Shown here: piece by piece, positions 2,833 to 9,690 of the stretch
How the letters are laid out: each line of letters starts with the position of its first letter
Numbering within the stretch: the first letter of the stretch is position 1
Source: Candidatus Latescibacterota bacterium
Lineage (GTDB): Bacteria > Latescibacterota > UBA2968
DNA: 63,020 nucleotides
Reading direction: 5' to 3'
Assembly (NCBI GenBank): GCA_022823725.1
Contig: JAJEHL010000051.1
Location: 1-63,020 of the forward strand
Program-made: the position numbers and the translations under genes
Notes under the pieces: model-generated
Database searches by the model: none
Told to the model about the DNA's origin: nothing
Seen by the model: the letters and a program-made list of their open reading frames with translations, nothing else

Positions 2833-4113
2833 TCACGCATTAAAATACCTTTCCAGACCACCTCGACTCTGGCACGCATGCGGAGCCGTGCAATCCCTCG
2901 CCTCTCGCCCGGCAATCGTCATCGCAATCCCGATCGGCGCAGGCACCAAATCGTCCTGTCGTACATTGTACTCAGTGCCGCCCCACCGCGATCCCACCGC
3001 CACCACATCGAATCGCACGAACCGTTCTACCCGCCGATCAAAACGTAGATATCCCAACACCGATGCATCCAACCCTCGCTCCCGACACGCGCCCTCGTAC
3101 CAACGCCCCTCCTCGAACAACTGCGCGGATCCGGAAAGCCTCAGATTCACCCATTCCGGCGTCTTTTCAGTCACCGTCAACGTCATAGCCGCATCTCGGA
3201 TCGCCTCAGACGACCAAGAAGACGTTTCCCCCCGAACGTAATCCGCCAGGTGATAACGCACCAGCCGTCTGACCAGTCCTTCGGGAAAGGGAATGACATC
3301 GCCCACGCCCACATCCGGTGGAACCATAGACAACACCTCTTCCCGTCGGAACCATACGTAATCCTGATTGTGCGCCTCTCGTTTCATTCCCCGAGGTCGT
3401 GTATCTACCTGCCGGGGCAGGTCCCGAACGCCCAGATGTAAAATCATTCCGTCTTCCGGATACCCCGTCCAGCTAAATGTGGGATCTCGATATGCCAGAT
3501 CTTCGATTTCCAATGCCTCGCGCTGGGTCTTGCGGTTCTCCCAATTCGCCAGCGCCCGTCTCAACATCCACAAAAACTGGTCTGGATCGCTACCCACACC
3601 ATGTACAGGAAGCTTGCCACCTGGAAATAGCCTGTTGCGGCTGCCCAACACCTCTCCCTCTATCGTCGTTACGTATAATCCCTGATGGTTCAGTCCGTGA
3701 TCGATATCCTCCAATCTGGCTTGAGCCTCGTCAAAAGAATACCCGTACCTTCCCTGCCAAGAGATCAAACGCAAAAACCTGCCCTCATCATCGGCTTGCC
3801 GCTGCAACCGGGTATTGTTCACAGCCACCGGGATAAACCGTTCATTCAAAAATTCGATCACGCGCGGATCTGAAAACACGAGCGCACGGCCCGTAACCCC
3901 ATTATTTCACGTACACCCCAGGGGATGGCCATTCATCGCCCAGATAAACAGTGGTTTCTCCTCGCTAGCCGCCTTCTGCCGCCCCTCCCAAAGTTCCCCG
4001 ATCCAGGGGATATCTGTCCACTGTTCTTTTTGGGGCCGGCAGGCTTCGAACAACTTCGCAAAAGTCTCGTCCGTCAACGCCGGAGCGGAATTTGTTATCT
4101 CTTTAAGCATCAT
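2833..4113 (-). CDS. Thioredoxin-fold protein, candidate selenoprotein with in-frame UGA
   Basis: Two frames that look separate are one reading frame of 427 codons interrupted only by TGA at 3909-3907. Before it, residues 1-68 start at ATG 4113 (GGAGG, 6-base spacing) and end FIWAMNGHPLGCT. After it come NNGVTGRALVFSDPRVIEFL and 348 more residues without a stop. The junction resembles Thioredoxin_7-type proteins (redox Cys shortly before F-S-D-P-x-V), so UGA would place Sec at residue 69 in a C-T-U motif. A 6-bp hairpin with a 5-base loop follows the UGA (separate entry). The C-terminal domain of about 300 residues is not recognised. The gene lies 50 bp downstream of an amidohydrolase in the same direction. 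The alternative is a nonsense mutation splitting a recently inactivated gene. Confidence 0.6.
3878..3894 (-). promoter_or_regulatory. Possible bacterial SECIS hairpin
   Basis: On the minus strand, downstream of UGA 3909-3907, ACGGGC and GCTCGT pair over six base pairs (one G-U) around a CGTGC loop. The loop begins 18 bases after the UGA and has G as its second base. Known bacterial SECIS elements are short stem-loops just after the UGA with a G among the first loop bases. Fit to that pattern is seen here; function is inferred. Confidence 0.4.
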
Positions 4114-4163
4114 ACCATACCTCCATATTTCTTAAAAAAATTACCTCTCTTATCACGCGAGCA

Positions 4164-7393: not shown

Positions 7394-9690
7394 CAACCGT
7401 GTATAGCAACCACAGCACCATTTTGATCTTTTTTCTCAGCCCGCAACGTCTCCCCCACCCAAACCTTCAACTCGCCATTGGGCAATGGTACCATTAAAAT
7501 CCCATCATCCATCCAAATGGGATCGCCTTCGGGCACATTCCCCGTCCTGTGCGGTCGCAATACAGCAATAAACGTGGTCTCTTCACGCGGTATTGTCGTC
7601 TCTGCTGTAACGTGATACTCCGTAAGTTGAACGCGATCTCTCGGCGGAGGATCAAACTGATCTGTCTGACTGATTTTCAAATTTTCTGGACGCAGCAGAG
7701 ACACCACACAGCCCGCATCACCAGTTGTAATTTTTAGTGTCTGTCCCTCGATATCCATCTCCGTTTCAGCGTGCAAATAATACTGAAATATCGAAGCCTC
7801 TGGTGCCACTACCGTATCGCAAATCACCACCGCATCGGGCTTTGCAAACAAAATCTGCCGCGTAAATTTTTTCAGCATTCCCCCGTATGCCGGAGCGGCT
7901 TCACCAGCCACATAATCAAATACATCCGACGTTTGAAAATCCAGAATTTCACCCATAGCCGCAGCGTGGTTGCGCAACTGACTCCCGCCATTTACCCCAA
8001 TACAATTGACCGACTTCGTATGGTGCATCCAGTTCTTGTGGTGGTCGCTGCCGTGAATATCGCGCTGCCCCGTGTGGATCAACAAACGCTCGCCAAAAGC
8101 AAACAGCGAAAACGAATTTTGCGCGTCAAAACCGTGACTCTGCGATCCAAACGGACTGCTCTTAAAAATGACCGACACATTGTTTTTCCCGTCCGTCAAA
8201 TCCGAATTCATCGCCGCCAACCCCGTACCGCGAAAACATTTTGAAGAAGGTAAATCCACCGGCGCTTCTCCGCGCACCTCCGGCAATGCACCCCGCACAA
8301 AATCGATATAGAGCGACCGACCGGCACCCACGGCATCCAACCGACGCGATTTCGTATCCTCTTTCGCTTTCTGTGGGTGCATATCCACATACCACTGCCA
8401 GTATGGATTGCGCGCCTGAGCAGCCAGCGTGCGCATCAAATCGCAATTCTGTCCAGACGTTCTCGTCGTCGTCAAATCGCCCACGCCCCCCCCTCGCGTG
8501 CCGGGAGGCTGAAAATACATCGGATAATCGCCAGCGCGTGCAAAATACGGTTTGCAATACGCATTGATCTCCATTGCCGTCTGCATAATATCCGCCCACC
8601 ACGTAAAGCGCTGAACATAACTATCCCAGTATTGCAATCCCTGGTGCCAACCGCCATCCTCGTCGCACCACGCGGGATACACGGCACCAAACACATTCAT
8701 AGCGAACCACACCCACTCCTCCGCCTCGGGGATCTCGTCCAAAAACGCCACGCCAATCTCACCCAAAAAATGCCAGGCGCGACCGGCATGGCTGCCATAA
8801 GGATGCCACAAATAGCGCATCTCAGTCGCCAGATGATCGTACATCTCCTGCCCCTGCACCTTCATCACCCCGCGGCATATCTCGCGCTCTTCTTCGCTCA
8901 ACAAATCGTTCACAAACGTATAGGTGCGACAAAAATAGTAATTGTAGGGCATACCAGCTTCGTCATTATACCGATAGCCTGTCGCCCCCAAAGGATCCCA
9001 TTTGGCACACGCAAGCAGCAACTCTTTCGCCTTCTCGCCATAGTGATCTCGCCCACCCAAAAGCCGCGTAAAAGCCAGCGTCGCCGCGCTGTTTAACACG
9101 CGAATCGTGTACATCCGATTCCCCCACCAGATCTCCCGCCATTCCTCGCTCAGAACAACAGTCCCCTCGGGATACAGGGGCGGTTCCTTAGTAGATGGCA
9201 TATCGGCCAGGATATCTTCGCAGGTTGCGACCAGATCGTCGTAAATCAGTTTCAGATCTCCTCGTGCCCGTGCGCGCAAGCTATCCAAATCCTCTGGACG
9301 CACAAACAAGCGCGGATGGCTCTTTGGGATCCGCCCAATCAATTCACTGCGTTTGGGCAACGGCAATGCGCTTGCATTCTGGTCAATCACAAAGGCGCGC
9401 CCCGAACTCCACTTCGACACCTGTCCATCTCCATCGACAAATCGGAACCGCCAATACCACTGCCCCGTTTCAAACACCTCTGCTGCGCGGTGAACCGTAT
9501 AGATCAATCCCCCTGCCTCGTACGTGATCTTTGAAAAATCCGCACCCCGCGCACACTGGATGTCATAGCTGACCGCATTCTCCTGCGGGCGCCACACAAA
9601 TGCCGGTGGCGTCTCCTCTGTCGTCACATTTTCCGGTCTAAATCCCCATTCTCCCGGCTGCGCAGGTCTTTCGTCAATTGTCAATGCCAT
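7393..9690 (-). CDS. Heparinase II/III-like polysaccharide lyase (DUF4962 type)
   Basis: A 765-residue protein. Residues about 1-115 form a fibronectin/DUF4962-like beta domain (W-Y-W-R-F-R-F-V-D). An alpha/alpha toroid helical domain follows (R-L-F-V-R-P-E-D-L, then Y-N-Y-Y-F-C-R-T-Y). The C-terminal heparinase_II_III beta-sandwich carries S-H-G-F-D-A-Q-N-S-F, the conserved His-containing segment. Such enzymes cleave uronic-acid polysaccharides by beta-elimination. No signal peptide is visible, so it would act on imported oligosaccharides unless export is non-classical. AAAGGAG precedes the ATG. It is 11 bp behind the aminotransferase gene and coupled to the Kelch gene. Confidence 0.8.
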   Translation of the reverse strand: MALTIDERPAQPGEWGFRPENVTTEETPPAFVWRPQENAVSYDIQCARGADFSKITYEAGGLIYTVHRAAEVFETGQWYWRFRFVDGDGQVSKWSSGRAFVIDQNASALPLPKRSELIGRIPKSHPRLFVRPEDLDSLRARARGDLKLIYDDLVATCEDILADMPSTKEPPLYPEGTVVLSEEWREIWWGNRMYTIRVLNSAATLAFTRLLGGRDHYGEKAKELLLACAKWDPLGATGYRYNDEAGMPYNYYFCRTYTFVNDLLSEEEREICRGVMKVQGQEMYDHLATEMRYLWHPYGSHAGRAWHFLGEIGVAFLDEIPEAEEWVWFAMNVFGAVYPAWCDEDGGWHQGLQYWDSYVQRFTWWADIMQTAMEINAYCKPYFARAGDYPMYFQPPGTRGGGVGDLTTTRTSGQNCDLMRTLAAQARNPYWQWYVDMHPQKAKEDTKSRRLDAVGAGRSLYIDFVRGALPEVRGEAPVDLPSSKCFRGTGLAAMNSDLTDGKNNVSVIFKSSPFGSQSHGFDAQNSFSLFAFGERLLIHTGQRDIHGSDHHKNWMHHTKSVNCIGVNGGSQLRNHAAAMGEILDFQTSDVFDYVAGEAAPAYGGMLKKFTRQILFAKPDAVVICDTVVAPEASIFQYYLHAETEMDIEGQTLKITTGDAGCVVSLLRPENLKISQTDQFDPPPRDRVQLTEYHVTAETTIPREETTFIAVLRPHRTGNVPEGDPIWMDDGILMVPLPNGELKVWVGETLRAEKKDQNGAVVAIHG

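Follow-up and report, generated by a model that had tools for sequence, protein, structure and literature searches.

The window analysed here, a 63,020-nucleotide stretch of DNA from a Candidatus Latescibacterota bacterium, contains on its minus strand a gene (2833..4113) with one in-frame UGA, which raises the question whether this codon is read as selenocysteine (Sec). From the ATG at 4113 to the terminator TGA at 2835-2833, a single frame of 426 codons is interrupted by one internal stop, the TGA at 3909-3907 (3907..3909, minus strand), which forms codon 69 and directly follows ...PLFIWAMNGHPLGCT. A GGAGG ribosome-binding site read from the sequence (4120..4124, minus strand) precedes the ATG. 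The initial annotation described two in-phase frames that together read as one protein broken only by this TGA after G-H-P-L-G-C-T; frame, position and preceding residues are as claimed. The part behind the UGA is also free of stops as stated there, but its length is 357 residues up to the terminator and not 348, a value that had been counted from a GTG at 3879. Codon 67 (3913..3915, minus strand) encodes a cysteine, the likely partner of Sec69 in a C-x-U motif. An evident signal peptide was not seen by eye in the window protein; hydrophobic signal-like N-termini, judged in the same way, are found in some members from other phyla (L111, L112 and L166).

The window is contig C24 of a genome of 5.3 Mb that consists of 51 contigs and is 98% complete. 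The search for selA, selB, selC and selD that had been proposed as a check of the Sec reading detected all four genes in this genome. The genes for selB (396 bits, cut-off 242) and selA (576 bits) are adjacent on contig C31, the tRNA-Sec scored 68.5 bits and is called by ARAGORN as tRNA-SeC with the anticodon tca (UCA in the RNA), and selD (367 bits) carries its own UGA at GGUASK. This search covered all four genes in the host genome and selA in the host phylum, as distinct from the other two phyla considered below. The selC and selD genes cluster together with a TlpA-like gene that contains a WUGC motif, and the UGAs of selD and of the TlpA-like gene are followed by downstream hairpins with the loop 20 nt away. 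The TlpA-like gene (L108, G000:C25:26000-42000, minus strand, 8660-9490, UGA at 9262-9260) is located just upstream of the UGA-containing selD, with the tRNA-Sec nearby. These are the second and third selenoprotein genes of the host genome.

Downstream of the UGA in the window gene, a bacterial SECIS-like hairpin was identified at 3878..3894 (minus strand). It has a 6-bp stem (ACGGGC/GCUCGU) and the apical loop CGUGC at 3888-3884, and the distance from the UGA is 12 nt to the stem and 18 nt to the loop, which bears out the stem, loop and loop spacing of the initial annotation. The bSECIS model, as given in the available part of PMC13188914, specifies a loop of 3-9 nt, a stem of 4-16 bp, a G in the first two loop positions, a distance of 16-37 nt from the UGA and a minimum free energy of <= -7.5. 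The window hairpin has a loop of 5 nt, a stem of 6-7 bp, a G at loop position 2, a distance of 18 nt and an energy of -7.7 kcal/mol, and the earlier remark that its spacing and loop G resemble bacterial SECIS elements thus agrees with this model as far as that source presents it. By folding energy alone the hairpin is ordinary (z -0.33; 71 of 200 shuffles fold as well). Energy does not set it apart from a chance hairpin; conservation does. The SECIS check was carried out with our own script in place of a published predictor, and the hairpin was found to be conserved with covariation. A hairpin with its loop 18 nt behind the UGA is kept in 20/20 homologues from the phylum. Among the 17 distinct sequences all 102 of 102 cells are paired, compared with at most 61% in slid versions. 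Three of the six pairs have changed on both sides (16 cells in total), a pair count that is reached by 58 of 500 shuffles, and RNAalifold finds the same helix unprompted. The loop Arg codon is CGT in 20/20 genes; CGT makes up 102 of the 837 Arg codons of those genes. No Rfam family was found within the gene, where the search returned three rows at chance level.

The 20 homologues are spread over 18 of the 64 genomes of the phylum and reach down to about 40% identity. All of them contain exactly one internal stop, which is a TGA at the same codon, so that the alignment of homologues at position 69 suggested in the initial annotation gives UGA in 20/20. The residues C67, U69, N70, N71 and G72 are invariant. 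A profile search of the 64 phylum genomes yielded no extra member and no Cys form. For eight within-genus pairs, dN/dS values of 0.13-0.29 were obtained before the UGA and of 0.11-0.17 after it; the gene is under purifying selection on both sides of the codon. While a single in-frame stop in the window alone does resemble a young pseudogene, the possibility that a thioredoxin-like gene was recently hit by a nonsense mutation, or of a sequencing error, is practically nil. It can be regarded as refuted by the position of the UGA, which is shared by all 20 homologues even at about 40% identity and is their sole internal stop, by the purifying selection behind the UGA, by the same UGA in other phyla and by the conserved SECIS element.

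A second possibility is that the UGA is read as an amino acid other than Sec, either in a reassigned code or by plain read-through. UGA read-through is known in many bacteria. Nevertheless, the terminator of the window gene is itself a TGA, so UGA is not reassigned throughout, and the codon falls on the active-site position of a thioredoxin domain. Together with the full Sec machinery, a selD with its own Sec UGA and a hairpin that fits the bSECIS model (PMC13188914, available part), these observations make a non-Sec reading highly improbable, only slightly less so than a pseudogene. The window gene is almost certainly a selenoprotein gene, with Sec incorporation deduced from the sequence evidence. 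The initial proposal of a candidate new selenoprotein is in this way supported by the machinery, the UGA in 20/20 homologues, the covarying hairpin and the same UGA in other phyla.

The distribution of the gene within the phylum was compared with that of selA, which was detected (E <= 1e-40) in 46 of 64 genomes. All 18 of 18 carriers have selA, against 28 of 46 non-carriers (one-sided Fisher 8e-4, the genomes not being independent). The gene is absent from three genomes of the same genus (G032, G033 and G038), two of which have selA, and it therefore seems to be dispensable. A contig scan with exact peptide patterns from one sequence, which reaches close kin only, found five relatives with 90-94% identity. 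One copy with 90% identity (L041, JAPPIE010000354.1) is found in a record titled Gemmatimonadota; its coordinates match the window-genus genome G036 and the title is probably a misassignment. No relatives were found on plasmids, and none of the 38 pattern matches on viral contigs was a relative, the patterns having Cys and not UGA at the site. Neighbouring genes (amidohydrolase, ceramidase-like, PLP enzymes, dehydrogenases) are common only to some relatives, and for this reason no function was read from gene context. A gene for a PLP-dependent enzyme adjoins the selenoprotein gene at L101, L102 and L103 (three genomes, two families) and not in the window; its assignment to PF00291 was confirmed for L101 and L103. 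Positions 95-1993 of the window (minus strand) encode a RecQ-type helicase fused to an N-terminal DUF488 domain.

The structure of the protein was modelled with AlphaFold2 from the 20-row alignment with Cys instead of Sec (pLDDT 83, pTM 0.81). The model contains a thioredoxin-like domain of about residues 28-200 (3514..4032, minus strand) and a C-terminal beta-barrel domain of about residues 204-426 (2836..3504, minus strand). For residues of about 30-195, VIA-align gave a Z of 12.5 to 3f9u (rmsd 2.0 over 106 residues) and Z values of 8-12.5 for DsbD- and DsbH-like chains. A Foldseek search with the entire model returned nothing at E <= 0.001 and no thioredoxin among the 50 matches listed, so that the fold assignment rests on VIA-align; sequence searches of the PDB gave no thioredoxin. 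According to the model the N-terminal domain is thioredoxin-like, and the helix of residues 70-80 begins directly after residue 69, which places the active site at the helix N-cap. Comparison by hhalign with the DsbH-like protein of the host (E 5e-5, probability 67) and with a DsbD-like domain from the same genus (E 7e-4, probability 27), E values that each apply to a single comparison, aligns Sec69 with the first cysteine of the CxxC motif and Gly72 with its second one, while Cys67 comes to lie in a 5-residue insert. In the DsbD alignment Gly145 falls on the cis-Pro. MAFFT agrees with hhalign for the DsbD-type domain; for the DsbH-type one it pairs Sec with the second Cys. Judged from these alignments, Sec probably stands where CxxC proteins have their first cysteine. 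The initial annotation had placed the C-x-U motif close to the active Cys of Thioredoxin_7-type proteins; in the hhalign comparisons with related thioredoxin domains, Sec falls on whichever active-site Cys comes first, with MAFFT dissenting for the DsbH-type. The C-terminal domain is predicted to form a barrel (pLDDT 80). Its best listed VIA-align match has a Z of 6.7, Foldseek gave no E <= 0.001 among the matches listed and there was no Pfam match of note. The rest of the protein, described as unrecognised in the initial annotation, stays without a confident relative among the matches listed by Pfam, Foldseek and VIA-align.

The search was extended beyond the phylum. A profile search of 386 relatives detected three genomes outside the phylum, two of which share a phylum, each with a UGA in the match. 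In the two further phyla, profile matches at E <= 0.001 were obtained in 60 of 84 and 63 of 291 genomes, tallies that also count some proteins from outside the family, among them an ordinary DsbH-type protein in G686. Up to nine profile matches were found per genome. The profile searches spanned 64, 386 (overlapping), 84 and 291 genomes, a portion of all bacteria, and Cys forms may exist elsewhere. The wider searches delivered 64 loci (L111-L174, with a few duplicates), 63 of which have the UGA and one of which (L120) does not cover the site. After matches identical over 105 nt were dropped (for example L025, the same as L021), 106 UGA matches were reduced to 98 distinct genes, comprising 19 from the phylum of the window, the 63 search-delivered loci and 16 hand-picked stretches; as they were selected for UGA, these genes are uninformative on the frequency of Sec at the site. 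Three motif types were distinguished, C-x-U (54 genes, 52 with UNNG), C-U-Q-N-G (9 genes) and C-U-G-S/T-G (35 genes). A Cys is found at -2 or -1 of Sec in 96/98 genes, the exceptions, both counted with the C-x-U type, having Ala (L184) and Met (L161). The thioredoxin domain of the C-U-G-S/T-G type aligns with that of the window by hhalign (E 1.4e-8, probability 95.5). The gene belongs to a thioredoxin-fold selenoprotein family that is conserved in at least three phyla.

A strict SECIS test, which allowed no bulge, by design had a G within the first two positions of the loop and required E <= -5 kcal/mol, was applied to all three types. Such an element is present in 43/54 C-x-U, 9/9 C-U-Q-N-G and 35/35 C-U-G-S/T-G genes, compared with 3165/18493 (17%), 304/2923 (10%) and 38/1355 (2.8%) at control codons of the same matches in the same order. 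No strict unbulged SECIS at <= -5 was found for 11/54 genes of the C-x-U type. The commonest loops are CGUGC or CGUGA for C-x-U, GUU for C-U-Q-N-G and AGGU or AGUU for C-U-G-S/T-G. An additional TAG or a second TGA was listed inside some matches. In the five of these that were read (L166, L172, L173, L183 and L182), the extra codon is the stop at the end of the frame, past which the alignment had continued, and pyrrolysine or a second Sec was rejected for these five.

In two genomes of the second phylum, genes of the CUG[ST]G type form arrays, with four genes in 9 kb (L188, G466) and five in 9 kb (L193, G420). The array genes of L188 and L193 encode an N-terminal domain of about 250 residues followed by the Sec thioredoxin domain and often by a further C-terminal stretch. 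Alignment of the CUG[ST]G N-terminal domain with the barrel by hhalign (E 0.046, probability 1.2; with a wider profile E 0.007, probability 5.6) is suggestive of the same barrel in the opposite domain order. The Latescibacterota sequences are not monophyletic in the tree, where L032-L035 group with second-phylum genes (98/96), and this grouping suggests gene transfer between phyla.

Sec-less forms were sought among nine hand-picked stretches listed without a stop, some other stop-free rows being parts of the same genes. Five of them are full-length homologues with Ser (L175, L177), Asp (L176, L178) or Cys (L179) at the Sec position. In two stretches that belong to the CUG[ST]G group, inspection by eye gives Gly (L189, L190; the program column is one residue off), L180 matches in the barrel only and L181 is a DsbH-type protein. 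The four Ser/Asp homologues (L175-L178) keep the barrel domain and have long tree branches. L179 (G537:C4), the only Cys homologue found, has the motif C-D-D-C with its second Cys at the Sec position. In the tree its branch is long and nested among Sec forms in a clade supported at 99/89. The Ser/Asp forms constitute one clade (100/98) whose join to the Sec clades is weak (87/68); the branches of the Sec-less forms are long, four of the five were flagged by the program and their placement is unsure. Because two Sec genes have no partner Cys and Sec-less copies rarely have Cys, the selenium itself seems to be of greater importance than its pairing with Cys, as judged from these sequences.

The best overall explanation, held with high confidence, is a selenoprotein composed of a thioredoxin-fold and a barrel domain with a proposed Sec redox mechanism; in all likelihood it is an oxidoreductase that depends on Sec and carries a fused binding domain. 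Its UGA at 3909-3907 would be decoded as selenocysteine by SelB and tRNA-Sec, with the hairpin 18 nt downstream as the guide. The alignments and the model suggest that Sec69 would cap the N-terminus of the active-site helix, the place of the nucleophilic first Cys in thioredoxins, that Gly72 would replace the usual resolving Cys and Gly145 the cis-Pro, and that Cys67 in the inserted loop may be placed to resolve a selenenylsulfide. The Sec selenolate would attack a disulfide, a peroxide or another electrophile, which the barrel domain may keep near Sec as the substrate-binding part; a Sec-Cys67 bond would then form and be reset by cellular thiols. A thiol/selenol redox reaction as such is probable, and the particular Sec-Cys67 cycle proposed here is put forward somewhat short of even chances.

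Two other functions compete with this mechanism. The site might bind or move a metal or a selenium/sulfur species and perform no thiol-disulfide redox chemistry. A Gly is aligned both with the second Cys of CxxC and with the cis-Pro, two Sec genes have no partner Cys (L161, L184), and loss of the cis-Pro lets thioredoxin folds bind metals. Nevertheless, the partner Cys at -2 or -1 in 96/98 UGA genes speaks against such a site, and a similarity to thiol oxidoreductases, together with a presumed redox function, is described for many selenoproteins that have yet to be characterised (PMC13188914, section 7); a metal or chalcogen site is considered unlikely. Slightly better placed, and still improbable, is a Sec peroxidase of the peroxiredoxin or glutathione-peroxidase kind, in which the barrel would bind a lipid or other hydroperoxide. 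Sec, a nearby resolving Cys and a barrel would fit such an enzyme, and Ser or Asp in Sec-less copies would mean that the barrel can persist after loss of the redox residue. Against it stand the lack of a Pfam match to peroxiredoxin or GPx and the barrel matches, all of which are weak with Z below 7.

With the Sec-dependent oxidoreductase as the preferred reading, a broader picture is offered tentatively: the gene would be one branch of a selenoprotein superfamily that spans at least three phyla and hardly tolerates Cys in place of Sec; loss of Sec would usually lead to Ser, Asp or Gly and abandon the redox site, the domain order may vary and tandem Sec arrays occur in one phylum. If Sec is indeed not exchangeable, the reaction would be one that needs selenium itself, performed by a Sec-bearing thioredoxin domain with a barrel dedicated to it. 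The family would offer a natural system for asking why sulfur cannot replace selenium in some enzymes, and its 98 UGA genes in three phyla would add to the selenoproteins known from these lineages. The usual route to bacterial selenoproteins is via their Cys-containing homologues (PMC12013277), which could overlook a family in which such homologues are nearly absent and leave its genes annotated as pairs of unrelated fragments.

Comparison with known families began with domain databases, where the window protein is below every Pfam and NCBIfam cut-off. The best rows of the other 19 phylum members have E values of 0.0028 (PF03190) and 1.4e-4 (NF041383), and in NCBIfam no match below E 0.03 was obtained with L111 or with the parts of L128 and L145 that were searched. 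The 2026 catalogue of 119 families and subfamilies has no evident equivalent in its Table 1 as available (PMC13188914). A description of the family was not found in the openly available portions of the selenoprotein literature, including PMC8318568 and PMC12013277; subscription papers and supplements are outside this scope and may hold one. The family is apparently uncatalogued.

The only recurrent NCBIfam match of the family is VPGUxxT type 2 (NF041383; OS_HP5 in the available Table 1 of PMC13188914), which is also thioredoxin-like. The similarity is weak (best E 1.4e-4) and involves residues 34-104, which include the Sec site; 14 of 20 members match with the domain alone, and the window protein reaches 18.5-20.6 bits against a cut-off of 275 bits in a match confined to its N-terminal part. 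The motif VPGUxxT differs from the UNNG with preceding Cys of the window family. The selenoproteins Sec.1 (CxU) and Sec.2 (UxC), listed with PF13192, and the Trx7/PDZ protein NF041199 (CxxU) are thioredoxin-like with a Cys near Sec, as in the window protein, and Sec.1 has the same C-x-U spacing and is the nearest motif in Table 1 (PMC13188914, available part). For PF13192 and NF041199, no match was found among the 20 members at E <= 10 with HMMER filters that drop most weak matches. The TlpA-like protein beside selD (AhpC-TSA/Redoxin, WUGC, assigned by eye) is a likely member of the UGC-containing TlpA disulfide reductases (cd02966). It differs from the window protein in its redoxin domain with WUGC and its TPR repeat and represents a separate family.

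The closest resemblance in fold and order of elements is to DsbH/DUF255 (PF03190), Thioredoxin_7 (PF13899) and the C-terminal domain of DsbD, which are the same as the window protein in both respects. The window protein scores 12.7 bits with PF03190 (gathering threshold 27) and gives no PF13899 row, the best E values among the 20 members being 0.0028 and 0.012, respectively. An FSDP motif after the active-site helix is common to the DsbH-type protein and the window protein. In contrast to the DsbH and DsbD proteins, the phylum family alignment does not contain CxxC and has C-T/V-U-N-N-G instead, with Sec at the first and Gly at the second Cys position according to hhalign, a 5-residue insert that carries Cys67 and a Gly at the position of the cis-Pro.
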